A stretch of 30,710 nt of DNA from a virus. The translations under genes were made by a program, and so were the position numbers. This document shows, in pieces, positions 2,152 through 23,221 of this stretch. The stretch covers positions 1 through 30,710 of the IMG/VR virus record IMGVR_UViG_3300042090_003220. One strand, 5' to 3'. The notes under the pieces are model-generated. The model saw only the letters and a list, made by a program, of their open reading frames with translations, searched no databases and was not told the DNA's origin. The first letter of the stretch is position 1, and every line of letters begins with the position of its first letter.

Positions 2152-4041
2152 ATGGAGACCGTCCAGACATCTGTACTGCCGGGTGGCGGGGACGGGCCGT
2201 CCCCGCTCCAGGAGAACCGCAGTCGTGCGGTGGGGGAGTTGTCGCGGGCGGAGAAGCTGGCGGCGGCGAAGGAGTATTTTAATCCGACGCCGTGTCCGGT
2301 GCTGCCGTGGCTCACAGATGATGAGCTGCTGGCGGCGCTGGACTTGCCGGATGGACCTGACGTGGTGGCCAAGCTGTTCAAGGAGCGGGAGGAGATGATC
2401 TTTGCGGCGAGCGAGGAGGGTGATCCGTTGCGGCATGGGTTTGAGTTGGAGCATTGGAGGGATGCGGACCGGTTGTTGAGCGAGAATCAGTATCTGTACG
2501 TGGCTGGCGGGAACCGGGCGGGGAAATCGGAGTGGGCGGCGAAGCGGTTTGTGGAATCGTGCCTGGCGTACGGGAATTCGATCCGGTGGTGTTTCCAGGC
2601 GACGGAGGACATGAGCCGGGATACGCAGCAGAAGCTGATCTGGAAGTATCTGCCGGCGCATATCAAGGCGCTCAACTTTAAACAGGATCGTCGGCATATC
2701 TTCAAGGTGCGCTGGAGTCTGGCGCAGGGGTTTACGGAGGGGCTTTTGGTGTTGCCAAACAAGACGCAGATCGTTTTTAAGACGTACAAGCAACTGGCGA
2801 GCGAAAATCAGGGGTTGGAACTGGGGGCGAAGCGTGGATCCATCGTGAAGCGGGCGGATGGGTCGATCGTGCCGAACATCGGAGTTTGGCCGGATGAGAA
2901 CATGCCGCTGGACTGGTATAAAACGCTGGTGACGCGGTGCGGCACGCGGGGGGCGAAGATGATCTGGACGTTCACGGCGATCAATGGCATCACGACGACG
3001 ATCAAGGAGTTTTTGGGGACGCCGAAGACGGTGGCGACGCGGCCGGCCGAGCTGCTGAGTGAGCGGGTGAACATTCCGGGCCAGCCGGCGGGGCACATGC
3101 CGTTCATCCAGACGCCGGTGACGGACGGCGGGGCGGTGATTTACTTTTTCACGCAGTGGAATCCGTTTTCCGGCTACGCGGAGAAGGGTGGTGTCAAGAG
3201 CGAGTGCAAGGACAAGTCGAGCGAGTTCATCGAACGGAAGGCCTATGGGTTTGCGCGGGATGTGATGAACAAGGCGTTTCCGCTGTTTGGGGAGGTGAAC
3301 GTGATCAAGGTGAGCGCGCTGCCGGCGAAGCTGACGCGGTACATGTTCACGGACCCGGGCGACGCCTCGAGGAGCTGGGCGAGTTTGTGGGTGGGAGTGG
3401 ATGCGAAGGGGAATCATTACATTTATCGGGACTGGCCGGACGCGCAGACGTACGGGGAGTGGGCGGTGCCGAGTTCCAATCCGCTGCAGCCGGACGGGGA
3501 TCGCGGGGATGCGCAGCGGAGCCAGGGGCTGGGGGTGAAGCAACATGCGGAGGAGTGGAGACGATTAGAAAAGATGGGTATTGGCCACCTCTCCCCGGCC
3601 CTCTCCCCCAGCGGAGAGGGAGACCGGAGCGATCTGAGGAATGAGGACATCTTTGAAAGATATACCGACCCTAGAGCCGCGAACAATCCGCATATTGAGG
3701 AGAACGGGGGGACGAACCTTTATCAGAAGTTTGCGGAGCTGGAGGAGCCGATGATTTTCCGGGGCTGGAGCGGGATTGAGATCGCGATCGGGTACACGCA
3801 TGTGAATTCGCTGCTGTACTGGAACAATGAAAAGCCGCTGAGCTGGCCGGATAATTGCCCGAAGCTGTACGTGACGGAGAATTGCAAGCAGGTGATCTGG
3901 ATGTTCAGCAATTTTACGGGTCAGGGCGGCGCGCGGGCGGGGGGGAAGGATTTTGCGGATTTGGTGAGGGGGATGGCGCTGGCGGACTTGCAATACTATG
4001 AAAGCACCACGTTTCAGAGCAGTGGTGGAGGGGCGTATTGA
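2152..4041 (+). CDS. terL: Terminase large subunit
   Basis: DNA-packaging motor: an N-terminal ATPase pumps DNA into the prohead and a C-terminal RNase-H-like nuclease cuts concatemers. Walker A is GGNRAGKS at residues 119-126. Walker B is best placed at IGVWPDE, with D248 and E249. The coupling motif is TFTAING at 273-279. The nuclease part begins near MFTDPGD with D401, and a late acidic pair D600/D603 sits in KDFADLVRG, as expected for this fold. The length of 629 residues is slightly long; two palindromic elements are read in frame, one near the N-terminus and one around residues 479-491 (HLSPALSPSGEG) between nuclease strands. The ATG directly follows the stop of the upstream gene. The portal lies downstream after three small genes. 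Confidence 0.93.
   Translation: METVQTSVLPGGGDGPSPLQENRSRAVGELSRAEKLAAAKEYFNPTPCPVLPWLTDDELLAALDLPDGPDVVAKLFKEREEMIFAASEEGDPLRHGFELEHWRDADRLLSENQYLYVAGGNRAGKSEWAAKRFVESCLAYGNSIRWCFQATEDMSRDTQQKLIWKYLPAHIKALNFKQDRRHIFKVRWSLAQGFTEGLLVLPNKTQIVFKTYKQLASENQGLELGAKRGSIVKRADGSIVPNIGVWPDENMPLDWYKTLVTRCGTRGAKMIWTFTAINGITTTIKEFLGTPKTVATRPAELLSERVNIPGQPAGHMPFIQTPVTDGGAVIYFFTQWNPFSGYAEKGGVKSECKDKSSEFIERKAYGFARDVMNKAFPLFGEVNVIKVSALPAKLTRYMFTDPGDASRSWASLWVGVDAKGNHYIYRDWPDAQTYGEWAVPSSNPLQPDGDRGDAQRSQGLGVKQHAEEWRRLEKMGIGHLSPALSPSGEGDRSDLRNEDIFERYTDPRAANNPHIEENGGTNLYQKFAELEEPMIFRGWSGIEIAIGYTHVNSLLYWNNEKPLSWPDNCPKLYVTENCKQVIWMFSNFTGQGGARAGGKDFADLVRGMALADLQYYESTTFQSSGGGAY
2186..2206 (+). repeat. 21-base palindrome in the 5' part of terL
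   Basis: GCGGGGACGG, one central G, then CCGTCCCCGC: a perfect inverted repeat read in frame as Gly/Asp/Pro/Ser. It resembles the other short GC palindromes scattered through the window and may be an inserted mobile-type repeat or a structure in the mRNA. Confidence 0.8.
3586..3623 (+). repeat. CT-rich hairpin element translated in frame in terL
   Basis: The element has a C/T-rich left half and then a perfect 8-bp stem, CCCTCTCC at 3599-3606 pairing with GGAGAGGG at 3613-3620 around loop CCCAGC. It encodes HLSPALSPSGEG-type residues that do not look like terminase core. I remember this kind of sequence as a dispersed intergenic repeat of several bacterial phyla; its presence inside an essential packaging gene is unusual. 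Confidence 0.75.
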
Positions 4042-4998: not shown

Positions 4999-7392
4999 AT
5001 GGACACGCAAGAGACATTGGTACATGTGGGGGACGGGTCGCCGAAGGTGAGCGAGCTGATCACCGAGTTCAAGCGGAACGGGTCGCAGGGCGATTCGTTC
5101 GGGCGGATGGCGATGGCGGAGGAGACGCGCCTGGCGCGGTGGTCGGGCCAGTCCGATGACGGGAAGAAGCACGCGGCCAATATGCCGGAGGGGAAGGAGC
5201 CGTTTCCGTGGGAGGGGGCATCTGATGTCAAAAATTATCTGGCCGATGGTGCCGTCAATGAAATGGTGGCGCTGTGTTACATGGCGTTCTGGAACGCGGT
5301 GTTGAAGATCGCCGGCGGGACGGAGAATGATCTGAGTGATGCGGCGACGGCGACGGAGTTCCTGGACTGGCTGATTCATTTTCAGTTGTTGCGGACGTTG
5401 GAGACGGAGGTGGAGTTGAGCGCGCAGTTCATGTTCAGCCAGGGGACGACGGTGTTGCATGTGACGTGGGAACGGGAGATTGGACGGCGGCTCGTGAAGG
5501 TGACGATGGAACAGCTGCTTGCCCTTTCTACCCAAGCCAAGCAGCAGGGGTCTGGCGGATCGGGTCTGGGGTCTGGGGGAAGTATGGCGCAAGCGCAGAT
5601 GGGTGGTCCGTCCTCACCCCCTACCATGGCCGCTGCCGCTGCTCCTCCAGGAGAGGGAGAAAATACAGATGCGCAACAACTCATTGATGTGCTCAGCGTG
5701 TTGCCGCAGCTCGTCATGGATCCCACGATGGAGGATGAGGCGGTTAAAGCCGTGCAGTTTGTTTATGAGGGGTATGCGAAGGCGCAGTTGCCGGCGGCAT
5801 TGGAGGAGTCGGATATTTTGCTTTTATCCGTCAAGCGGGCGCGGGCGGCGGTGCGGTCTTTGCGTCTGGACGGGGAGTGCGAGCTGCCGTTGCCATACCT
5901 GGCGAAGAATCAGCCGATGGTGACGGCGTTGAAGCCGTTCCGGGATTTTGTGCTGCCGGTGGAGGTGGGGGATGTGCAGACGAGCCCGGTGGCGTTTGTG
6001 CGGGTGCTGTTGACGGAGGCGGATCTGCGGTCGCGCGTGCTGAGTGATCAATGGGACGCGGACTGGGTGGAGGAGGCGGTGAAGACGAAGGGGAAGTTTT
6101 CGACGTGGCAACTGCTGAATCCGTATTCGACGGTGGGGACGTGGAACTGGCGGGCGGTGGACAACCGGAGCTGGTTGATCGAGGTGGTGTACGCGTACGT
6201 GAAGCAGGTGGACGAGGACGGGGTGACGCAGGTGCAGGCGACGATCTTTAGCCCGCATTTCACGAAGGCGCCGTTCGGCGAGGGCGAGAAGGACGAACTG
6301 GCGGCGAAGAATGAGATTTTGAATTATCCGCGGCCGGAGTACCCGCTGATCCTGGGCCGGCGGGAGCGGTTTGACCGGAGCTGGTTGGCGACGCGGGGGA
6401 TTCCGGAGGTGCTGGCGACGGACCAGATGGTGGAGAAGGCGATGCTGGACAACATCGTCGATATGGCGGGCATGGCGGCCGTTCCGCCGTTGCTGGTGCC
6501 GAAGGGCATGGGGGCGCGGTTCAAGATCGGCCCGGCGGTGCAGAACGAATATATCCCGGGGCGCGAGACGAAGTTCATGGAGATGCCGACGAGCCAGCTG
6601 ACGCCGGCGATGGAGGTGATCAAGGGGATCCGGGAGAAGATGGCGCGGTACCTGGGGTTGTTTGACGCGAGCGTGATGCCGCAGTTGAGCGCGATGCTGC
6701 AGCAGCCGGCGGTGAAGAAGTTTTTGACGATGTGGGGCGAGGCGTTGCAGATGGCGTATGAGCTGAGCGTGAAGTTTGACGCGGACACGGTGGAGAAGGT
6801 GACGGGGAACGCGCCGAATCCGGACGCGGATGCGTTTCACTACGTGATGCATTTTGACGCGGGGCAGTTCCAGCCGGAATTGATGGAGGCGAAGATCAAG
6901 GCGTTTGCCGAAATGGCGGCGGCGGACAGCACGGGATCGATCGACCAGGCGAAGCTGACGCAGTTGAAGGCGCGCATGGTCGATCCGCAGATGGCGAAGG
7001 AGCTGATCATTCCGCAGGGCCAGGCGAGCGTGAAGATCTACAAGGACGTGCAGAATGACGTGCTGAACATGTTCGCGGGCAGCGAGCCGCAGTATGCGGA
7101 CGCGAGCAATGATCCGGCGGCGCCGACGAAGCTGCAGAATTTCATGCAGATCGTGCAGGGGAATCCGAACTACCTGGCGGCGCTGGACCCGGCGACGGTG
7201 ACGAAGCTGGCGCCGGGCCCGCAGGGGCAGCAACTGGCGCAGCAGATCGGGCAGAGCCAGCAGCAGAGCGGGAAGAAGGCGGATCCAAGGTTCAGCGCGC
7301 TGGTGGAGAATTATGTGAAGAATTTGCAGCAGGGGGTGGCGCAGCAGCAGAACAAGCAGGTGGGACGCACGGGGGTAAAGAAGTTAACCTGA
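4999..7392 (+). CDS. Portal protein
   Basis: Dodecameric portal at the capsid vertex through which DNA enters and leaves. The N-terminal part holds FPWEGASDV at residues 69-77, a hallmark of a podovirus-like portal family, followed by the long mixed alpha/beta body and helical stretches (EVIKGIREKMARYLGLFD; LTMWGEALQMAYELSVKF) typical of the stem and crown. The length of 797 residues fits large portals. Residues about 179-224 form a Gly/Ser/Ala/Pro linker whose DNA partly resembles the CT-rich hairpin element of terL, so it may be an inserted loop. The C-terminus is Gln-rich (QQLAQQIGQSQQQS), as in many portal barrels. Followed by three small genes, then scaffold and capsid genes. Confidence 0.87.
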   Translation: MDTQETLVHVGDGSPKVSELITEFKRNGSQGDSFGRMAMAEETRLARWSGQSDDGKKHAANMPEGKEPFPWEGASDVKNYLADGAVNEMVALCYMAFWNAVLKIAGGTENDLSDAATATEFLDWLIHFQLLRTLETEVELSAQFMFSQGTTVLHVTWEREIGRRLVKVTMEQLLALSTQAKQQGSGGSGLGSGGSMAQAQMGGPSSPPTMAAAAAPPGEGENTDAQQLIDVLSVLPQLVMDPTMEDEAVKAVQFVYEGYAKAQLPAALEESDILLLSVKRARAAVRSLRLDGECELPLPYLAKNQPMVTALKPFRDFVLPVEVGDVQTSPVAFVRVLLTEADLRSRVLSDQWDADWVEEAVKTKGKFSTWQLLNPYSTVGTWNWRAVDNRSWLIEVVYAYVKQVDEDGVTQVQATIFSPHFTKAPFGEGEKDELAAKNEILNYPRPEYPLILGRRERFDRSWLATRGIPEVLATDQMVEKAMLDNIVDMAGMAAVPPLLVPKGMGARFKIGPAVQNEYIPGRETKFMEMPTSQLTPAMEVIKGIREKMARYLGLFDASVMPQLSAMLQQPAVKKFLTMWGEALQMAYELSVKFDADTVEKVTGNAPNPDADAFHYVMHFDAGQFQPELMEAKIKAFAEMAAADSTGSIDQAKLTQLKARMVDPQMAKELIIPQGQASVKIYKDVQNDVLNMFAGSEPQYADASNDPAAPTKLQNFMQIVQGNPNYLAALDPATVTKLAPGPQGQQLAQQIGQSQQQSGKKADPRFSALVENYVKNLQQGVAQQQNKQVGRTGVKKLT
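5611..5662 (+). repeat. Degenerate CT-rich hairpin element in portal linker
   Basis: TCCTCACCCC at the left and a CTCC/GGAG hairpin followed by AGGGAGA at the right resemble the element at 3586-3623, with about 20 unrelated bases between. It is read in frame as PSSPPT, an Ala run and PPGEGEN. Relationship is suggestive only. Confidence 0.4.
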
Positions 7393-7434
7393 GCTAAATG
7401 GCTGAAGAGTTAAATTGTTAAATTGGAAAAACCT
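7393..7434 (+). repeat. GAAGAGTTAAA filler
   Basis: A/T-rich spacer containing GCTGAAGAGTTA at 7401-7412, the same 12-mer as at 13664-13675, followed by repeated TTAAAT words. GGAAAA at 7425-7430 may serve as a weak ribosome-binding site for the ATG at 7435. Confidence 0.55.
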
Positions 7435-7695
7435 ATGGATACATTGCTTTATATCATTTTATTCGCCGCCGGGTGTTTGACCGGATTTGGCTGGGGTGTT
7501 GCATTCGTGAACAAACGAATGAAGAAGCGCGTTCAAGTGGCCGAGGATGTCGCGAAAATCGCTTTGGGAACTTTGGTGGTAACACCGGGCGTCCAGGCGG
7601 GTGGACAACTGGGGAACTCGGGGCTGGAAAGCCCCGAGAACCGGCAGGCTGGAAAGCCTGCCCTACATGGTCAGGGGAGGACGCAGCATTTATGA
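7435..7695 (+). CDS. Small single-span membrane protein with repeat-derived tail
   Basis: An 86-residue protein: residues about 4-24 (LLYIILFAAGCLTGFGWGVAF) are one hydrophobic span, then NKRMKKR forms a positive-inside stop and a short helix (VAEDVAKIALGTL) follows. The rest (GLESPENRQAGKPAL and flanks) is encoded by a copy of the double-hairpin element, read in frame. I chose the ATG at 7435; the TTG at 7423 would add four residues. The stop overlaps the next ATG (ATGA). A holin-like or envelope role is possible from the topology, but nothing in the sequence proves it, and the tail may be dispensable. Confidence 0.6.
   Translation: MDTLLYIILFAAGCLTGFGWGVAFVNKRMKKRVQVAEDVAKIALGTLVVTPGVQAGGQLGNSGLESPENRQAGKPALHGQGRTQHL
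7620..7666 (+). repeat. Double-hairpin element, copy 1
   Basis: Stem 1 is GGGGCT/AGCCCC and stem 2 is GGCAGGCT/AGCCTGCC, each around a GGAA loop, joined by GAGAACC and ending in CTAC. This copy is translated in frame at the C-terminus of the gene starting at 7435. Confidence 0.93.
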
Positions 7696-8345: not shown

Positions 8346-9659
8346 ATGAGCACTCCAAATCCGAAAGCGGCAGCAGGCACCGCTCAACCAACTGCGAAGA
8401 CCGAAACATCCGACGGGCCGCTGATTCCGGGGCGCGCGGATATTCTGAAAAGTTTTGCGGACCTCGCGGAGAGCGGGTCGCGGGCGCTTTCAGAAAAGAA
8501 ACCGGAAGAAAAGGTCGCGCCGGCTGCTGCCGGTGGCGAGAAACCAAAAGTTCTTTCTCAAGTTGAAGCTACTGAAGCGATCGCCGATCCGAAGGCGGAA
8601 GCGACGCAAGAGACGGAAGCGGAAAAGCAAGCACGCGAAACCACGGAGGCGGCCGAACTGGCGGAACGGGCGAAGGCGACGGGGCTAACACCGGTCGAGC
8701 AGAAGACGGCGGAAGATCTGGCGCTGAAGGAGTTGACGGAGCGGGCGACGAAGGCGGGCAAGACGGTCGAGGAGCAGTTCGCATTGGAAGAGGCCGAGGA
8801 AGCGAAGGCGGCCGGCGGCGGCGAGGAGGATCACCTGGCGGAAGATGCGGAGCTGAAAACGGCGCTGACGCCGGAGACCCAGGAGAAGATCAATAAACGC
8901 ATCGGCAAAGAGGTCGCAAAGACGAAGGCGGCCGTGGAAGCCAAGGCGGCGCTGGAGACGAAGCTGGCCGAGGCGGAACGCAAGCTCACGGAAGCTCCCA
9001 GGGCGGTGACGGCCACGGCGACGGGACCGCTGGCGAATGTGACGACGGTCGAAGGACTCCGGGCCGAGGAGGCGAAGGCGAACGAGGCGATCAACCAAGC
9101 CGAGGATCTGTTGCTGGCGCTGGAGGATTCACCGGAAGAGGTGGAGGCCACGCTGAAGACCGCGAAGGTGGCGCTGGACGAGTACACGCCGGCGGCGATG
9201 CGGCGGTACCTGGCCAACCTGAAGGCGAACGCGACAAAGTTTGTGCGGACGCAGATCCCGGCCCGGGCGACGTGGCTGCAGAAGGCGGACGTGGCGGCGG
9301 CGCAGGCGCTGAAGCTGATGCCGGAGCTGGCGGACAAGAACAGTCCGCGGGCGAAGAAGTTCTGGGAGATCACAAACGCGATGCCTTCGATCAAAAACGA
9401 AGCCGGGTGGACGAAGATGGTGGCCGTCCAGGTGCTTGGACTCGAACGGTTGGGCGAGCTGGAAACGGCGGCGGCGAAGCCGGCACCGGTGAAGGTCAAG
9501 CCGCGGGTGAAGCCGGTGGTGATCCCGAGTCCGAAGGGGACGCCGGCGGGCGGGGCGCCCCGGCGGGCAAACAAGAATGAGGTGGATGCGGAGACCGCTT
9601 CAGCAGCTTTGAACGGAGACAAGAACGCGAAATGGAAAATTTTGGAAGGTTTGTTTTGA
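8346..9659 (+). CDS. Scaffolding-like protein
   Basis: A 437-residue highly charged helical protein placed between portal and major capsid protein, the classic site for a scaffold that guides prohead assembly and then leaves. The N-terminal half is Ala/Glu/Lys-rich (KAEATQETEAEKQARETTEAAELAERAKATG and similar coiled-coil stretches). The middle continues as coiled coil (AALETKLAEAERKLTEA; INQAEDLLLALEDSPEEVEATLK). The C-terminal part is basic and Pro-rich (KVKPRVKPVVIPSPKGTP) and may contact the capsid protein, as basic scaffold tails do. No protease motif is seen. The start at 8346 has only a weak AGG upstream. Function rests on position and composition. Confidence 0.7.
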   Translation: MSTPNPKAAAGTAQPTAKTETSDGPLIPGRADILKSFADLAESGSRALSEKKPEEKVAPAAAGGEKPKVLSQVEATEAIADPKAEATQETEAEKQARETTEAAELAERAKATGLTPVEQKTAEDLALKELTERATKAGKTVEEQFALEEAEEAKAAGGGEEDHLAEDAELKTALTPETQEKINKRIGKEVAKTKAAVEAKAALETKLAEAERKLTEAPRAVTATATGPLANVTTVEGLRAEEAKANEAINQAEDLLLALEDSPEEVEATLKTAKVALDEYTPAAMRRYLANLKANATKFVRTQIPARATWLQKADVAAAQALKLMPELADKNSPRAKKFWEITNAMPSIKNEAGWTKMVAVQVLGLERLGELETAAAKPAPVKVKPRVKPVVIPSPKGTPAGGAPRRANKNEVDAETASAALNGDKNAKWKILEGLF

Positions 9660-9663
9660 CGAC

Positions 9664-9710
9664 GGGACTGGAAAGTCCCGTGAACCGGCAGGCTGGAAAG
9701 CCTGCCCTAC
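9664..9710 (+). repeat. Double-hairpin element, copy 2 (compensatory variant)
   Basis: Stem 1 reads GGGACT/AGTCCC here, changed on both arms relative to GGGGCT/AGCCCC so pairing is kept; stem 2 and both GGAA loops are unchanged. It lies between the scaffold-like and capsid genes. Confidence 0.93.
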
Positions 9711-9743
9711 AAAAGAACCGGCCAAGGAAATGGAGACTGTTTT

Positions 9744-10794: not shown

Positions 10795-10816
10795 CACAGG
10801 CGGGACGCCTGTGCTA
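10795..10816 (+). repeat. Single-hairpin relative of the double-hairpin element
   Basis: CACAGGCG and CGCCTGTG form a perfect 8-bp stem around GGA and the element ends in CTAC, like the larger elements. It lies 26 bases before the ATG at 10843. Confidence 0.75.
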
Positions 10817-10842
10817 CAAACGAAAATTAAAAATAAATTATT

Positions 10843-11283
10843 ATGCAAATCGTACCTTTGGTGATCGAGGAGGCCGCTTACAGCGGGTTCACTCAAAAAA
10901 TCATCCTGACGGCGGCGGACATCATCCTGCTCACGAGCGGGACGGCGGCGAGCATCTTTCCGGACTTCAACGTGGCGACGCAGTTTGCGGCGGGCACGTA
11001 CATCACGGATCTGGCGATCAATGTGAAGACGGCGTTCACCGGGCAGGCGGGCACGTTGACAATGGCGTTGACGGACACGGCGGCGAATGCGTTGAGCGCG
11101 GCGGGCCTGAGCCTGACGGCGGCGGGCTGGCTGGCGAGCTACAACCTGACGAAGCCGATCCTGGAGACGGCCGTGGGCCAGATCCTGGCGACGATCACGA
11201 GCCAGAACGCGATCACGGGCTGGACGGCGGGCGAGGTGCACATTTACCTGGCGTTGAGCGATCTGAACACGCTGGACCGGTGA
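10843..11283 (+). CDS. Probable capsid-associated structural protein (146 aa)
   Basis: I do not recognise a family. Position directly after the major capsid protein and a beta-rich, Ala/Thr-rich sequence (TQKIILTAADIILLTSG; FAAGTYITDLAINVKTAF; AGEVHIYLALSDLNTLD) with no cysteine suggest a head decoration or head-completion protein. The C-terminal strand pattern is regular, as in small beta-barrel cement proteins. The start at 10843 is preceded by an A/T-only leader without a Shine-Dalgarno sequence, nearly the same as the leader at 11485. It ends the second transcription block, 105 bases before a terminator. Confidence 0.62.
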   Translation: MQIVPLVIEEAAYSGFTQKIILTAADIILLTSGTAASIFPDFNVATQFAAGTYITDLAINVKTAFTGQAGTLTMALTDTAANALSAAGLSLTAAGWLASYNLTKPILETAVGQILATITSQNAITGWTAGEVHIYLALSDLNTLDR

Positions 11284-11292
11284 GTGAAACAC

Positions 11293-11339
11293 GGGGCTGG
11301 AAAGCCCCGTGAACCGGCAGGCTGGAAAGCCTGCCCTAC
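11293..11339 (+). repeat. Double-hairpin element, copy 3
   Basis: Canonical form: GGGGCT/AGCCCC and GGCAGGCT/AGCCTGCC stems with GGAA loops, GTGAACC linker, CTAC end. It starts 10 bases after the stop of the preceding gene. Confidence 0.93.
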
Positions 11340-11350
11340 GGCAAATGATT

Positions 11351-12001: not shown

Positions 12002-12457
12002 ATGAGCCAAGGTTTCCAGGTGGATTTGAGCGCGCTGCCGGCGGCGGTGGTGGAGGAGTTTCGGCTGGGCCGGCTGGCGCGGGAGGTGCACACGCTGCGC
12101 CAGGCGCCGAAGGTGCAGGCGCAGATCGCGAAGGAGAATGCGGGGGAGCATCGGGCCATGAACGGGCTGGGGCGGTTGCGGATGGTGGTGGGCCCGGATG
12201 CGTTTCATTACTGGGGGCGTCGGCTGGGGTACGAATGCTGGCGGGACAAGGCGTTTCTGAACGAGTTTGAGCGGGATAATCCGGCGGTGCGGGTGAAGTG
12301 CGGGGGGACGAAAATACAGGTGGGGTATCGGCCGAGCTTGGCGCTGCAGGTGAAATTTCCGGAGCGGGTGGACACGGGGCTGGAAAGCCCCGTGAACCGG
12401 CAGGCTGGAAAGCCTGCCCTACAGGCGGCGGCGGACACCAAACTGATCATCGCATGA
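12002..12457 (+). CDS. Hypothetical phage protein (151 aa), repeat-derived tail
   Basis: The N-terminal half is helical and basic (VVEEFRLGRLAREVHTLRQAPKVQAQIAKE). The middle has an aromatic, conserved-looking stretch (MVVGPDAFHYWGRRLGYECWRDKAFLNEFERDNP) followed by short strands (KIQVGYRPSLALQVKFP). The last part (TGLESPVNRQAGKPAL) is a double-hairpin element read in frame. The ATG at 12002 has AGGAAG upstream. The stop overlaps the next gene by four bases (ATGA). The order before an adaptor-like gene and the aromatic core suggest a head-tail joining accessory, but no family is recognised. Confidence 0.65.
   Translation: MSQGFQVDLSALPAAVVEEFRLGRLAREVHTLRQAPKVQAQIAKENAGEHRAMNGLGRLRMVVGPDAFHYWGRRLGYECWRDKAFLNEFERDNPAVRVKCGGTKIQVGYRPSLALQVKFPERVDTGLESPVNRQAGKPALQAAADTKLIIA
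12376..12422 (+). repeat. Double-hairpin element, copy 4
   Basis: Canonical sequence with GTGAACC linker. It is translated in the same frame as copy 1, giving nearly the same residues at the end of an unrelated protein. Confidence 0.93.
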
Positions 12458-16881: not shown

Positions 16882-17295
16882 TTGAAGGTGTCCACCTTGG
16901 ACGGCTGGTCGGATTTCATCCAACTGGAGCCGTTGCCGTGGCGGATGCGGGATGGGCGGCTGTTGCGGAGCCGGACCGGATCGGGCACGGACGGGCTCAG
17001 CTCGCCGAAGTTTGTGAAGTGCGATCTGCAATCGACGAACAGCTTCTTTCCGACGGTGTCGCACGATGCGTGGTATCGCGGGAACATCGAGGAGTCGTTC
17101 GACAACGGCGCGACGTGGACGGCGTGGACGCCGGCGCAGTACGTGAAGGCGGAGGCGGACCAGGCGTTGCGCGAGCTGGCGACGGATAACGATGTGCCGG
17201 CGGCGGAGGTGAACCTGCTGTTTGAGGCGGTGAGCCGCTTTGGTGATGCCGCGTGGACGGCGGATGCGGCGGCGCGGGCCGCCTTGAAAGCATGA
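16882..17295 (+). CDS. DUF1353-family phage protein, start uncertain
   Basis: Matches the DUF1353 pattern known from phages: a TDGLSSPKF motif (T36, D37), SHDAWYRG (H61, D62), then a helix with AEADQAL (D93) and the closing VSRFGDAAW. These His and Asp positions are the family's conserved set and suggest metal or catalytic use, although the family's activity is unassigned as far as I know. It is often near lysis genes. The start is unclear: TTG at 16882 or GTG at 16888, neither with a good ribosome-binding site, and codons from 16852 after the upstream in-frame TAA also read as plausible protein (LPYLHPNERLK). The stop overlaps the next ATG (ATGA). Confidence 0.72.
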   Translation: MKVSTLDGWSDFIQLEPLPWRMRDGRLLRSRTGSGTDGLSSPKFVKCDLQSTNSFFPTVSHDAWYRGNIEESFDNGATWTAWTPAQYVKAEADQALRELATDNDVPAAEVNLLFEAVSRFGDAAWTADAAARAALKA

Positions 17296-17828
17296 GTTCC
17301 TGGATCCAACTGCCGGATGGGTACACGTTTGCGCTGGAGGCGATGCGGACGATCGTGGCGGATGGGGCGGCGGTGGTGCTGACGCCGGCGGACGGGACGC
17401 CGGCGGTGCGGTGGGACGCGACGGATGCGCGGTATGCGGCGCTGGTGATGACGGCGCTGCAGGGGATCATGACTTCGCCCTCGGGTTTCCAGACGGTGAC
17501 GCCGGCGCCGATCATCGACAGCGTGGTGTTGTCCCAGGAGGACATCACGCTGGCGACGGTGACGATCACGGGGTGCGGGTTCTATGCGCGGACGGTGGGC
17601 AAGCTGTATTTTGAGGATACGAGCGGCGGCCAGGACAGCAACGGGTATTACGACGTGTGCGCGTATGTGAACGGGCAGAGCCTGACGGGGACGTACGGGG
17701 GGGCGGGCGACGGGAATCTGTCGCAAGGCGGTCCGGGCGTGCTGATCTATTACCAGGACACGCTGGGGACGAAGAGCAACGTGATCAACGGGACGAATGT
17801 GAGCGGGACGCAGGTGACGATTCCGTAG
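17292..17828 (+). CDS. Beta-rich hypothetical virion protein (178 aa)
   Basis: Starts in an ATGA overlap with the DUF1353 gene, so the two are translated together. The N-terminal part (WIQLPDGYTFALEAMRTIVADGAAVVLTP; YAALVMTALQGIM) is mixed; the C-terminal part has IPT/Ig-like character (PIIDSVVLSQEDITLATVTITGCGFYARTVGKLYFED; VNGQSLTGTYGG; VIYYQDTLG). Such domains are common in tail-surface proteins. I do not recognise a family. The sequence is Gly/Thr-rich without a signal peptide, and its stop is followed by a double-hairpin element. Confidence 0.6.
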   Translation: MSSWIQLPDGYTFALEAMRTIVADGAAVVLTPADGTPAVRWDATDARYAALVMTALQGIMTSPSGFQTVTPAPIIDSVVLSQEDITLATVTITGCGFYARTVGKLYFEDTSGGQDSNGYYDVCAYVNGQSLTGTYGGAGDGNLSQGGPGVLIYYQDTLGTKSNVINGTNVSGTQVTIP

Positions 17829-17843
17829 TTGAGGGCGAAACAC

Positions 17844-17890
17844 GGGGCTGGAAAGCCCCGTGAACCGGCAGGCTGGAAAGCCTGCCCTAC
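17844..17890 (+). repeat. Double-hairpin element, copy 5
   Basis: Canonical copy with GTGAACC linker, ending in CTAC only five bases before the ATG at 17896, so the element itself occupies the ribosome-binding region of the adaptor-like gene. Confidence 0.93.
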
Positions 17891-17895
17891 GATAA

Positions 17896-18516
17896 ATGAA
17901 GACGGTCACTTACAACGACATCATGTTTGCCGCCGCCGAGGTGGCGGGAAGGACGCGTGACAAGATTCCGCCGAGCGAGGCGATCATGCTGCAGGCGTTT
18001 CTGGCGACGGCGCTGCGGGACATCTGGCAGGGGGCGTACCAGTGGCCGGAACTGATCCCGGCGATCGTGAGCGTGCAGACGACGAACCGGGTCTTCTCGA
18101 AACAGGAAGGCAACGCGGGCGAGATGGGGGACATTCTAGGCGTCTGGACGAATAATCCGCAGGTGACGACCTCCTATGTGATGTGCCGGTTCTATGAGCA
18201 GAATGACGCGGTGCAGCTCGAGGACGGGGGCGGGACGGTGTGGGTGGAGTACATGCTGCCGCGGCCGGATCTGATGCAGGTGCCGGCAAACCAACTGGCG
18301 GCGTATGCGATCCCGGACCGGTTCCGGAATTATCTCGTCTATGTGGCGGCGGGAAACCTGGTGCGCGCGGACGGGCAGATGGCGCAGGGGGATGAAATCC
18401 TGGCGCTGGCGCAAAGCGAGATCTCGACGGAGATCCGGCGGCTGGTGGATGTGCCGCGGCGGGCGGTGAAGAACCGGAATATTTATGAGGTGCATCCGCA
18501 GACACCTCCCCAATAA
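17896..18516 (+). CDS. Head-tail adaptor-like protein (206 aa)
   Basis: Probable connector between portal and nozzle. N-terminal helices (SEAIMLQAFLATALRDIWQGAYQWPEL) and C-terminal helices (PDRFRNYLVYVAAGNLVRADGQMAQGDEILALAQSEISTEIRRLVD) enclose a small beta region (YVMCRFYEQNDAVQLEDGGGTVWVEYML), the arrangement of T7 gp11/P22 gp4-like adaptors of about 200 residues. It directly precedes the nozzle-like gene, the usual order. The gene at 12454 shares the helical frame but carries large insertions, so either may be the structural adaptor and the other a modified relative. No Shine-Dalgarno sequence; a double-hairpin element ends just before the start. Confidence 0.65.
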   Translation: MKTVTYNDIMFAAAEVAGRTRDKIPPSEAIMLQAFLATALRDIWQGAYQWPELIPAIVSVQTTNRVFSKQEGNAGEMGDILGVWTNNPQVTTSYVMCRFYEQNDAVQLEDGGGTVWVEYMLPRPDLMQVPANQLAAYAIPDRFRNYLVYVAAGNLVRADGQMAQGDEILALAQSEISTEIRRLVDVPRRAVKNRNIYEVHPQTPPQ

Positions 18517-18593: not shown

Positions 18594-21380
18594 ATGATTT
18601 TACCACCGCCATCTCCGTTTTTGGATGCGAAGGACCTGAACTCGCGGTATGCGAGCGAGGTGCGGAAGCTGTCCAATGTGACGCCGGTGCAGGATGGGGA
18701 TGCGGCGTTTTACAAGGTGGACACGCGGCGGCCGGCGCATGAGCTGGAGACGGGGGTCTGCGCGGATGCGCTGAACAAACGGTTTGAGGATGGGCGGGCC
18801 TGGCCGCGGTTCGGCATCGATACGCAGGCGTGGGGGAAGGTGACGGATGGCGGGACGGTGTGGGGTTATGCGCGGTTCAATGATCCCCAGGGCTTTGATG
18901 TGACGCTGGTGGCGACGGATGCGTGGCGGACGACGGACGGCGGCCGGGGCAACCTGTGGCGCATCCTGCCGGGCAATGCGCCGGTGCTGGTGCCGCTGAA
19001 CGGTCACGATATCTGGGGGACGGTCCGGCTGATCCCGAGTTACAACGGGGTGACGATGTTGCGCCAGGGGAATGAGCGGCATTATTTCTCGGCGAAGGTG
19101 ACCTTGGCGATCACGAGCACGGCGATCACGGGCGGGACGGTGACGGTGAATCCGGCGACGCTCAGCGTGGGCCGGGCCGTGACGGTGACGGGGATCACCG
19201 GGGCGACGGCCACCTATTATGTGGGAGCGATCACGGGGACCACGATTTGTCTGTACGATACGAAGGCGCACGCGGTCGCCGGCGGGGCGACGGGAAGGTT
19301 TGCGATCAGCGTCAATGGCCAGGCGGGGACGCTGAACCTGCTGGCGGTGGATCCGGCGGCGAGCACGATCCAGCTCAATGACACGCCGACGTGGAACAAT
19401 GGCGATGAGGTAATTTTCAACGGGATCGCGGGCGGGAATTTCAGCCAGGCGACGCTGGCGGTGACGAGCACGGCGATCACGGGAGCCACGGTGAGCGTGG
19501 TGACGACGTTGCTGACCGCGGGGCGGCCGGTGACGGTGACGGGGATCACGGGGGCGGCGGGGACGTACTACATCGGGGCCATCACCTCGACGACGGTTTG
19601 CCTGTACGATACGGCGGCGCACGCGATCGCGGGCGGCTCGACGGGGAAATTTGCGATCACCGTGAATGGCCAGAGCGGCACGCTCAGCTACGGGATCACG
19701 CCGCCGAATTCCGGGGCAGGCTATTATGTGAAGACGTTGCCGGGGAATGTGATCCAGTTGTACAGCGATGCGGCGTTGACGACGTATATGACGTTTGCCT
19801 CGGCCGTCGGTCAATTTTACCTGGAGCGGGATGCGGCGTTTCCCGGGTTTTACGGGAACGGCGCGCCGCCGCTGCTGGCGCGGCCGAACGCGAGCGGGAA
19901 CACGTGGCTGGACCTGGGGATGCTGCTGGTGCCGACGAGCATCCTGATCACCTCGACGAGCAGCAGCAGCTCGAGCAACCCGAACGTGGTGACGGCGCCG
20001 CAACACGGGCTGCTGCCGGCGGACGCGGTGACGGTGACGGGGATCCACACGACGAACGCGGCGCTGATCACGGGGACGGTGTATGCGTACCCGATCTCGC
20101 CGGACGCGGTGGTGCTGTACACGACGAGCCTGGCGGCGCTGGCGGGCGGGGCGGCGGGCCAGGTGCCGCTGACGGTGAGCGGGGAAAGCGGGACGCTGAC
20201 GAAGGCGGGGAGCACGGGCCTGCCGATGCCGAGCGGCCGCGAGGGGCTTTACTTTCAGAACCGGCTGCTGGTGGTCAATGGCAGCGACACGCTGATGATC
20301 AGCGATCCGTTGAATCCGCTTTCCTTCAGCCCGTTTGTGAACGCGGTGACGGCGAACCTGGGCAGCAGCGACCCGATCACGGCGCTCTGGCCGTTCGGCA
20401 GCGATTCGGTGCTGATCATGCGGGGGACGCGGGTGGACATCCTGAACAACCTGAGCGGGGGTGCAAGCGCCTGGACACTGAGCAACGTGACGACGGAGTA
20501 CGGGTGCATCGCCCCGTTGAGCGTGGCGCAGACGGGGCAGGATGTGTGGTTCCTGACGCGCAAGGGCGTGGCGAGCATCACGCAGACGGTGAATGGCGAG
20601 GTGCAGGGCGTGGCGGATCCGGTGAGCAAGCCGATGAAGAAATACATCGATGAGATCAACTGGCTGTACGCGAGCACGGCGGTGGGGGCGTATTGGAACA
20701 ACCGGTATTTTGTGGCGCTGCCGCTGAAGGGGCAGACCGGAGCGGTCCAGAACAACGGGATTTTGAGCTACAACTTTTTGAACCAAGGGTGGGAGGGTCT
20801 GTGGTCGGGGGCGACGCTGCTGGTCGCCGGCTTTGCCCGGCAACTGATCTTTGGCGAGGAGCGGCTGACGTTCCTGGATTACACGGGGCAGGCGCGCTGG
20901 TTCGGCGACGGGTTCACGGACGGGGCGGTGCCGATCAGCGACATGCTGTTGACGCGGGCGTACACGGCCGGCAGCCCGACGCGGCGGATCTGGCTCTCGA
21001 CGGCGATCATCTGGGACACGAACAATCCGAGCCTGACGGTGAACGCGCTGACGCCGGGCTGGGATGAGACGTTGGCGATGACGGCCAACCAGACGTATGA
21101 CCTGACGCAGTACCAGATCTACGGGCAGGCGGCGTATAATCCGGCGACGAGCACGCAGCCGCAGTTTGATGCGCCGTACCGGGCGGATTACGCGCTGACG
21201 CCGCAGGAGCTGCTGGTGGGGGAATTGGACGTGCACCAGAACTATACGGAGAAGTTCCGGATGCGGCGGGATGACTGGGCCGTGCAAATCCAAATACTGA
21301 ACACGTCCGGCTCGGCGCGCATCCAGGCCGTTGGGGTGATGGGTGTTGCCGGGCCGTCCGCCGGTTCACGGAATGTCTAG
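18594..21380 (+). CDS. Nozzle-like tail protein with three internal beta repeats
   Basis: A 928-residue protein likely to form the tail tube end (P22 gp10/T7 gp12-like nozzle). It begins PPPSPFLDAKDLNSRYASEVRKLSNVTPVQDG, then a beta region. Residues about 169-252 and 286-370 are two closely similar modules (SVGRAVTVTGITGATATYYVGAITGTTICLYDT against AGRPVTVTGITGAAGTYYIGAITSTTVCLYDT), and about 449-540 is a divergent third; they resemble the small FCCH-like domains seen in phage tail proteins. Residues about 545-760 (REGLYFQNRLLVVNGSDTLMISDPLNPLSF; DSVLIMRGTRVDILNNL; VWFLTRKGVASI; YWNNRYFVALPL) have the blade rhythm of a beta-propeller, as in nozzles. It follows the adaptor-like gene directly. 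Confidence 0.7.
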   Translation: MILPPPSPFLDAKDLNSRYASEVRKLSNVTPVQDGDAAFYKVDTRRPAHELETGVCADALNKRFEDGRAWPRFGIDTQAWGKVTDGGTVWGYARFNDPQGFDVTLVATDAWRTTDGGRGNLWRILPGNAPVLVPLNGHDIWGTVRLIPSYNGVTMLRQGNERHYFSAKVTLAITSTAITGGTVTVNPATLSVGRAVTVTGITGATATYYVGAITGTTICLYDTKAHAVAGGATGRFAISVNGQAGTLNLLAVDPAASTIQLNDTPTWNNGDEVIFNGIAGGNFSQATLAVTSTAITGATVSVVTTLLTAGRPVTVTGITGAAGTYYIGAITSTTVCLYDTAAHAIAGGSTGKFAITVNGQSGTLSYGITPPNSGAGYYVKTLPGNVIQLYSDAALTTYMTFASAVGQFYLERDAAFPGFYGNGAPPLLARPNASGNTWLDLGMLLVPTSILITSTSSSSSSNPNVVTAPQHGLLPADAVTVTGIHTTNAALITGTVYAYPISPDAVVLYTTSLAALAGGAAGQVPLTVSGESGTLTKAGSTGLPMPSGREGLYFQNRLLVVNGSDTLMISDPLNPLSFSPFVNAVTANLGSSDPITALWPFGSDSVLIMRGTRVDILNNLSGGASAWTLSNVTTEYGCIAPLSVAQTGQDVWFLTRKGVASITQTVNGEVQGVADPVSKPMKKYIDEINWLYASTAVGAYWNNRYFVALPLKGQTGAVQNNGILSYNFLNQGWEGLWSGATLLVAGFARQLIFGEERLTFLDYTGQARWFGDGFTDGAVPISDMLLTRAYTAGSPTRRIWLSTAIIWDTNNPSLTVNALTPGWDETLAMTANQTYDLTQYQIYGQAAYNPATSTQPQFDAPYRADYALTPQELLVGELDVHQNYTEKFRMRRDDWAVQIQILNTSGSARIQAVGVMGVAGPSAGSRNV
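19098..19350 (+). repeat. Internal protein repeat 1 of the nozzle-like gene
   Basis: Encodes the first VTVTGITGA...CLYDT module, about 84 residues. The DNA is also closely similar to the copy at 19449, indicating a fairly recent duplication or repeated conversion. Confidence 0.8.
19449..19700 (+). repeat. Internal protein repeat 2 of the nozzle-like gene
   Basis: Second copy of the module, with the same TSTAITG start, AHAIAGG turn and VNGQSGTL end. The third module at about 19938-20215 shares the V.VTGI and SGTL marks but is diverged and has a Ser run. Confidence 0.8.
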
Positions 21381-21410: not shown

Positions 21411-22541
21411 ATGAAGATGATCAAAATGGCGATGGTGGCGGTGATGAGTTTCATGCTGGCGTGCGGGCCGGCGGTGGCGACGCTGACGGCGACGTGGACG
21501 CCGGGGTATGTGTTCAGCGCGAATGAGCGGCCGACGACGGAGACGTTGAACGAGCTGGGCAACGGGACGATCCTGATCTCGGGCACGGTGGATGGATCCA
21601 CGGGCCTGACGGCGGGGAGCGTGGCGGGGAACCTGCTGGCGGACAGCGTACCGGACGGGGTGACGCTGAACTACAACGGGAGCGCGCCGCGGCAGATCGA
21701 GATCCTGCCGGGCGGGGTGGGCTGGCAGCAGGTGAACACGAACGTGGCGGGCCGGGCGTTGAGCGGCGGGTTCAACCAGGCCTCGCAGACGGGGACGAAC
21801 CTGAACGTGAATTACGACGGGTTGACGATCGTGCTGAACACGAACAACGCGCTGACGATCGGCGCGGGGTTTCTGGCGGGATTGTTCTTCACGTATCCGG
21901 CGACGCCGAACTTCACGAACCAGTGGGGCTATGCGCAGGCGTTCCTGATCACGAATTTCCAGATCACGCTGCCGACGAACGCGTGGACGTACGCGACGAA
22001 CACGTGGCGGGGGACGACGATCACGACGAACAGCGCGGCGCCGGCGCTGGCCGCGGCGGACACCACGGCGATCCAGAGCACGCTGCAGGACACGAACACG
22101 GTGACGACGCTGGGGAGCCTGGCGGGATTTGTGCAGGGGCAGGAGCAGCAGAACGCGGGGACGTACACGAACCTGACGCGGGTGCTGCCGACGGCGCCGG
22201 GCGTGGTGCCGTGGTACTGGGGCGGCTCGACGAACAACGCGACGAACGTGACGGCGAGCAGCCAGACGATCACGGTGTGGGTGAACTCGAACACGGCGAG
22301 CGCGATGCTGGTGGACGTGGGGGGATCGTACGCGCATTACCAGAGCGGCAGCGGCTCGTATTCGGTGATCCTGGGGGACCAGAACACGAACCAGGTGTTC
22401 CTCATCAGCGCGGCGCAGGATCCGGGGGTGTTTCCGGTCAACCGGTTCATCGTGCCGCCGCATTACGGGATTTACCTCAAGGGCGGCAGCGGGAGCAGCC
22501 CGGTGAACTGGGCGTTCACGCTGCTGGCAACGCCGTACTGA
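21411..22541 (+). CDS. Fibre-like protein with N-terminal signal-like segment (376 aa)
   Basis: Residues 1-23 (MKMIKMAMVAVMSFMLACGPAVA) look like a Sec signal peptide; the MLAC before the cleavage region is a poor lipobox. The mature start, WTPGYVFSANERPTTETLNELG, and ISGTVDGSTGLTAGSV match the N-terminal style of phage tail fibres. The rest is beta-rich with many Thr and Asn (LNVNYDGLTIVLNTNNALTIGAG; SSQTITVWVNSNTASAMLVDVGGSYAHYQ) and ends in a receptor-domain-like strand set (HYGIYLKGGSG, NWAFTLLATPY). It follows the nozzle-like gene. It may be the tail-tip or host-range protein; the signal segment is unexplained. No Shine-Dalgarno sequence. Confidence 0.65.
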   Translation: MKMIKMAMVAVMSFMLACGPAVATLTATWTPGYVFSANERPTTETLNELGNGTILISGTVDGSTGLTAGSVAGNLLADSVPDGVTLNYNGSAPRQIEILPGGVGWQQVNTNVAGRALSGGFNQASQTGTNLNVNYDGLTIVLNTNNALTIGAGFLAGLFFTYPATPNFTNQWGYAQAFLITNFQITLPTNAWTYATNTWRGTTITTNSAAPALAAADTTAIQSTLQDTNTVTTLGSLAGFVQGQEQQNAGTYTNLTRVLPTAPGVVPWYWGGSTNNATNVTASSQTITVWVNSNTASAMLVDVGGSYAHYQSGSGSYSVILGDQNTNQVFLISAAQDPGVFPVNRFIVPPHYGIYLKGGSGSSPVNWAFTLLATPY

Positions 22542-22564
22542 CCAACGTGACGTTGGATCCAAAT

Positions 22565-23221
22565 ATGAAACTGCAACCATTCTTTATCACCGGGATCCCG
22601 CGGACGCGGACGGCGTGGCTGGCGAATTTCTTCACCACGAAGAATTCGTTTTGCTGGCATGATGCGATGAAGGGCGGCTGGCGCGCGGAGCACGTTCATG
22701 ACAAGTTGATGCAGGCGAAGCTGGCGGGGAATTATTATTGCGGCGATGCGGACAGCGGGCTGCTGCTGGTGATGGAGCGGATGAATGAGATCTTTCCCCA
22801 GGCGCGGTGGTTGTTTGTGCGGACGACGCCGGCGGACGCGGCGCGGAGCTACCGGGAATATTTTACGGAAGGGAAGGAATATCCCGGAGTGCCGGCGGGG
22901 ACGGACCTCGAGGAGATGATGGAGAACATCCACGAAAAGTATGAGGCGGCCTTGGCGAGCGTCCCGGCGTCCAGACGCCTGGAGGTGGACAAGACGGACC
23001 TGGACCATCCGAAGGTGATGGAGTCGGTGTGGCGTTGGCTGGTGCCGGGGCTGAGCTGGGATCCGTTGCGGTATGAGTTGTTGAATGAGCTGGCGGTGAA
23101 TGTGCTGGCGAGGAAAGTTAAGGTGGCGGCGTTACCCAATCAACTGGGGGCTGGAAAGCCCCCAGCACCGGCAGGCTGGAAAGCCTGCCCTACGGCGGAG
23201 CCGTTGAGCGGGCCGATTTGA
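22565..23221 (+). CDS. Sulfotransferase-like protein (218 aa)
   Basis: The N-terminus FFITGIPRTRTAWLANFFT (G10, R13, R15, T16) has the form of the 5'-phosphosulfate loop of PAPS-dependent sulfotransferases, GxPRSGT-like, and residues DSGLLLVMERMNEIFPQARWLFVRTTPADAARSYREYF fit the second, 3'-phosphate-binding block (strand, R, then S). It may transfer sulfate to a cell-surface sugar or to a virion component. The length is short for the family. The C-terminal tail (GAGKPPAPAGWKACPT) is a double-hairpin element read in frame, and ASVPASRRLE comes from another palindrome. The GNAT-like gene follows after 4 bases. A kinase of the same P-loop class is the main alternative. Confidence 0.62.
   Translation: MKLQPFFITGIPRTRTAWLANFFTTKNSFCWHDAMKGGWRAEHVHDKLMQAKLAGNYYCGDADSGLLLVMERMNEIFPQARWLFVRTTPADAARSYREYFTEGKEYPGVPAGTDLEEMMENIHEKYEAALASVPASRRLEVDKTDLDHPKVMESVWRWLVPGLSWDPLRYELLNELAVNVLARKVKVAALPNQLGAGKPPAPAGWKACPTAEPLSGPI
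22961..22983 (+). repeat. GTCCCGGCGTC palindrome inside a gene
   Basis: GTCCCGGCGTC matches the left arm of the hairpin at 11943-11973; GGCGTC, CA and GACGCC form the local palindrome here. It is read in frame in the sulfotransferase-like gene. Confidence 0.65.
23146..23193 (+). repeat. Double-hairpin element, copy 6 (extended stem)
   Basis: Stem 1 is lengthened on both arms to GGGGGCT/AGCCCCC, stem 2 is GGCAGGCT/AGCCTGCC, linker AGCACC. It is translated in a different frame from copies 1 and 4, at the C-terminus of the sulfotransferase-like gene. Confidence 0.92.

Follow-up and report, generated by a model that had tools for sequence, protein, structure and literature searches.

The window, as we call the whole stretch of DNA analysed here, is an entire virus record of 30,710 bases with a G+C content of 62%. 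It belongs to a tailed phage whose major capsid protein is of the SU10 type (PF17236). The protein encoded by its terL gene matched no PHROG or Pfam family, a profile of it gave no match among PDB sequences, and in genome contigs the profile returned 88 pattern stretches without any confirmed relative. The gene was identified as a terminase by a fold search, in which the top matches of an AlphaFold2 model (28-sequence alignment, mean pLDDT of 83.5) were the large terminases of phages D6E, Sf6 and T4, with a best E of 1.5e-10. The nearest relative of the window TerL, L002/L003 (one contig), is 63% identical in protein.

Table 1. Features of the window and their positions.
Feature	Coordinates	Strand	Evidence or remark
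terL, large terminase subunit, 629 aa	2152..4041	+	open reading frame and fold search; alternative start GTG 2230
Odd palindrome, 10-bp arms, 1-nt centre	2186..2206	not assigned	in TerL N-terminal extension or 5' leader
Putative inserted triplex motif (TM type B), 39 nt, 13 codons (HLSPALSPSGEGD), in terL	3586..3624	- (triplex-forming purine strand)	profile, 8-triad motif, absence in relatives
8-bp hairpin core, CCCTCTCC-CCCAGC-GGAGAGGG	3599..3620	not assigned	hairpin scan
Portal linker, longer than in relatives	5611..5662	+	resemblance to terL element at chance level
D1 copy 1	7613..7675	-	in 3' end of ORF 7423-7695
D1 copy 2	9657..9719	-	begins at stop codon of ORF 8346-9659
Single hairpin CACAGGCG-gga-CGCCTGTG, then CTAC (GTAG on minus strand)	10795..10817	-	between two genes; sequence unlike D1
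D1 copy 3	11286..11348	-	just past ORF 10843-11283
D1 copy 4	12369..12431	-	inside 3' end of ORF 12002-12457
D1 copy 5	17837..17899	-	just past ORF 17253-17828
Direct repeat, 238 nt, 77% identical	19096..19333 and 19447..19684		within large ORF 18594-21380
D1 copy 6	23140..23202	-	inside 3' end of ORF 21923-23221

Two palindromic elements, both in frame within terL, had been described in the original prediction. The first, reported as a perfect 21-base palindrome, is real and reads GCGGGGACGG-G-CCGTCCCCGC, but its centre base is unpaired, so that 20 of the 21 bases are self-complementary. It is stronger than expected, the window holding two stems of at least 10 bp against a mean of 0.25 and a maximum of 1 in 20 first-order Markov simulations. 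Whether it is coding is doubtful. Because the candidate start GTG 2230 lies downstream of it, and because the alignment with the nearest TerL begins at residue 26 of the window protein, near which the relatives start, the palindrome is part of the gene only if translation begins at ATG 2152; it may belong to the 5' leader instead of the coding sequence. As an abundant host repeat it was rejected, being matched with one mismatch in 2 of 78 genomes and through its 18-base core in 4 of 78. The portal linker, in which about 28–33 residues are missing from the six closest loci, had been put forward as possibly containing a degenerate relative. Against the profile of the second terL element it scores 2.5 bits (E 6.9), a value that simulated windows also reach, so that the resemblance is at chance level.

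An in-frame insertion in a loop of TerL

The second element encodes TerL residues 479–491 in phase 0, and all six of its frames are open, with stop codons absent. The 8-bp hairpin that had been predicted between 3586 and 3623 was recovered within it. A total of 80 relative loci (L002–L081) were aligned, 75 of which cover the site, and the 13 inserted residues are missing from every one of the 75. The expected restriction to one lineage is therefore borne out, and the finding named beforehand as counting against it, equivalent residues in distant terminases, did not occur. In L002/L003 the TerL aligns on either side of the element, with 15 residues missing precisely at the HLSPALSPSGEG segment; no empty site in a near-identical terL came to light. 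The second element is both genuine and an insertion. Other, unrelated extra residues are present at the same site in three of the relatives (L032, L033 and L069), indicating that this loop of TerL is naturally variable in length.

In the structural model the insert falls between helix 462–480 and the strand preceding the invariant D506. Residues 484–486 and 488–491 have pLDDT values below 50, and the insert therefore sits in a loop of the nuclease domain with little predicted order. This agrees with the loop position originally claimed; the loop probably lies at the protein surface, as the same claim has it.

A different palindrome, with an 11-bp stem, occupies the equivalent loop in L004 (7326–7350), whose TerL is 54% identical, and is missing from the nearer L004 relatives L005 and L007. 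It may represent a second, independent palindromic insertion at one TerL site. Its identity as a host repeat finds no support, with a match in just one of 78 genomes.

Repeat families of the window

A profile made from 37 copies in Verrucomicrobiota genomes scores the second terL element (3586–3623) at 26.0 bits, with an E of 3e-7. This is the sole place in the window above noise, the best of 50 simulated windows reaching 8.4 bits, and the match also spans the non-palindromic left part of the element. On the minus strand the element reads CCCTCTCC-GCTGGG-GGAGAGGG-CCG-GGGAGAGG, with eight out of eight purine triads and the published CCG loop. A perfect 8-triad class II motif occurs once in the window and in none of 100 simulations. 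Taken alone, the hairpin has a stability ordinary for its composition (z of -0.18 against shuffles); the evidence for the element consists of its triplex motif and its match to the family.

Searching the literature by sequence led to the account of Holder et al. (2015; PMC4666352), which defines the type B motif of E. coli (TM_ECO) by a CCG second loop and a purine third strand, and gives PIT as an earlier name of the motif. The terL element has a hairpin of the CCCTCTCC / GGAGAGGG type, followed by a CCG second loop and a purine third strand that mirrors the purine arm (GGAGAGGG-CCG-GGGAGAGG), and it is a member of a multi-copy genomic family. The intergenic location, which is descriptive and stands outside the motif definition, does not apply to it, since it lies within codons 479–491. 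Judged by its sequence, the element belongs to the G/C-rich intrastrand triplex motifs of TM type B, a kind of repeat found between the genes of many bacteria of soil and water.

Of 78 genomes from one Verrucomicrobiota order, 36 contained the generic pattern of the family, the maximum being 52 copies in a genome, and the reversed control pattern had 0 matches; the match to an abundant genome repeat that had been anticipated for the second element was thus obtained. A close form of the element (at most 3 mismatches of 34) turned up in just a single genome among 288 sampled from the phylum as a whole. Its exact 29-mer had no match in viral contigs.

The window also holds six 63-nt copies of a different repeat, D1, made up of double hairpins adjoining CTAC (GTAG on the other strand). 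All six end in AGCCTGCC-CTAC, so that the GTAG tag of GTAG REPs stands beside a hairpin in each of them; the terL element has no such tag. The copies share one orientation and lie at gene 3' ends, and their first stem varies from copy to copy with complementarity kept. Stretches of genome contigs with the D1 core number at least 118, and most of the 80 listed are from Verrucomicrobia; the upstream second hairpin accompanies the core in 122 of 155 copies (80 listed and 20 further loci). In viral contigs an exact 27-mer of D1 had no match and its 22-base core occurred in 10 stretches only. Two genomes of the Verrucomicrobiota order (G004 and G350) contain both D1 and the triplex motif, and from these two repeats we infer that the host of the phage is verrucomicrobial. 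The identity of the terL element with a published triplex motif and the six copies of another host repeat both go beyond the original prediction, which overall is partly supported, the observation itself being partly confirmed.

The triplex motif in other viral contigs

The generic pattern was found in 81 stretches of viral contigs. The 80 listed viral loci, some of which are parts of one contig or near-identical contigs, contain 92 copies of the motif, and 42 of these lie inside long ORFs (180 aa or more, with a minimum of 25 aa on either side of the motif). This is rarer than chance (741 of 1000 random positions), as expected of a repeat mostly kept out of genes. Motif-bearing ORFs of at least 250 aa accounted for 36 rows, and 30 ORFs were scanned against PHROGs, the rows outside the scan being L319, L324, L339, L356, L366 and the second row of the L362 ORF. 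Family matches were obtained for 10 of the 30: a terminase (L325), head proteases (L325, L316 and L313), portals (L315 and L343), a head-tail adaptor (L300), an integrase (L291) and families of unknown function (L308 and L347, two families).

The L325 terminase, which is unrelated to the window TerL, carries the motif in frame beyond its PHROG-matched stretch, and its 28-residue insert is missing in all six relatives that cover the site. A second copy lies 3.2 kb away in the protease gene of L325. Around both copies the terminase and head protease genes share a 63-bp unit (7625–7687 and 10860–10922; 60 of 63 positions identical, 95%), which exceeds the published motif in length and suggests that the mobile unit is somewhat longer than the triplex core.

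In L315, L343 and L316 the motif is in frame and falls within the PHROG-matched stretch. The portals of L315 and L343 are diverged; when they are aligned, the motifs of both coincide in one linker, and Pseudomonas phage PM105 has a shorter version of this linker. For the L316 protease, a search for relatives returned its own contig alone, and the insert is judged against a named phage of 42% identity with a weak alignment at the site. The motifs of L313 and L300, near the N-terminus and outside the matched stretch, are weaker cases.

Pairs of viral stretches that align across the motif mostly carry it in both members, including pairs at 94%, 78% and 73% identity, which implies that copies can persist; in one pair at 69% identity it is not clearly common to both. 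Clean empty-site pairs were absent among the viral stretches, close pairs both holding the motif. At the sensitivity used, only 2 of 50,697 named phage records matched. These are MG065686.1 and MG065691.1, both Campylobacter phages (86.5% identity, E of 0.02), in which the motif is possibly foreign DNA in the assemblies. A literature search, with subscription journals thinly covered, found no report of REP or similar repeats inside phage genes.

Origin and retention of the insert

The family identity of the element, its lineage-restricted gain, its phase, its loop position and the presence of the same family in other phage head genes together make it very probable that a host-type TM type B motif entered the phage terL as a single unit of some 39 bp and was kept in frame in a variable loop. 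The motif, an abundant repeat of Verrucomicrobiota and other bacteria, would have entered as such a unit from a donor that was presumably the phage's own host. Three properties would explain why it was kept: a length divisible by three, the lack of stops in every frame, and a landing site in the nuclease domain, namely the loop of variable length between helix 462–480 and the strand leading to the conserved D506. The enzyme with the insert probably still works, and the insert appears to have been retained by tolerance and not for any benefit.

Selection, with the triplex or the encoded peptide serving a regulatory or packaging role for the phage, would fit the recurrence of the motif in head genes of different phages, including the one linker of two diverged portals, and its conservation between contigs just 73–78% identical. 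However, the motif is depleted in ORFs overall and the insert of the window sits in a variable, low-confidence loop, and we regard such a role as unlikely.

Slightly less probable again is that the element is a coding palindrome of the Rickettsia type or a REP mobilised by RAYT transposases. Rickettsia palindromic elements and CGTC REPs, which PMC3733652 describes as short palindromic repeats in frame in protein-coding genes, behave in an equivalent way, and Y1 transposases are common in the genomes examined. However, the terL element and its flanks have neither an unpaired CGTC end nor, as in RAYT-mobilised REPs, an unpaired GTAG end, and the transposase loci are flanked by other palindromes. 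Moreover, Y1 (RAYT) transposases did not set repeat-rich genomes (11 of 12 have them) apart from motif-free ones (9 of 12), and in none of 20 transposase stretches did the triplex motif lie within 1.2 kb of the transposase gene, so that a linkage of the family to RAYTs is unsupported by both genome distribution and proximity. D1 copies were likewise absent from the 20 transposase stretches read, a small sample.

An assembly artefact, in which two contigs were joined at a repeat, is very improbable: misjoins at short repeats can occur and such virus records may be fragmentary, but both flanks belong to one TerL that is collinear with one relative, the reading frame is intact across the element, and the L325 TerL gives an equivalent picture. 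That a C-rich coding stretch merely happens to be palindromic, as the unremarkable hairpin stability and the G+C content of the window might allow, is scarcely credible, since it is already contradicted by the insertion relative to all relatives covering the site, by a profile score extending over the non-palindromic left part of the family and by the lack of the triplex motif in simulations.

Insertion of a host-type motif followed by in-frame retention is thus the reading we prefer for terL. It is conceivable, if still speculative, that the triplex motif is more than an unstable intergenic repeat and constitutes a mobile family of about 40–63 bp that invades phage genomes, is tolerated in frame in loops of essential head genes and is carried by phages between hosts, the TerL and portal loops being natural traps that record the insertions. 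The lineage-restricted, in-frame gain in a phage terminase and the duplicated 63-bp copy in L325 are direct signs that the motif can insert. Furthermore, repeats shared with bacterial genomes offer a clue to host assignment for uncultured viruses.

Among known systems, D1 resembles the GTAG-tagged REPs, known from the verrucomicrobium O. terrae according to PMC3733652, in having a GTAG tag beside a hairpin and in lying downstream of coding regions; it differs from them in that each unit has two hairpins and one phage record contains six copies. The terL element is like the Rickettsia palindromic elements of that source in being a short palindromic repeat in frame in a coding gene, and unlike them and the CGTC REPs in having no CGTC end, in its sequence family and in its phage carrier. 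Protein-coding palindromes, described in Rickettsia and other bacteria, are now extended to essential phage genes.

TM_ECO type B (Holder et al., 2015; PMC4666352) and the terL element belong to one family. The hairpin, the CCG second loop and the purine third strand are all identical in kind, and a high copy number per bacterial genome and inverted pairs about 90 bp apart are common to both. In the same account the motif is tied to genome instability, and the E. coli copies are intergenic without exception, with no association with phages, transposons or plasmids found. In contrast, the reading frame of a phage packaging gene runs unbroken through the motif of the window, which was acquired within a phage lineage.
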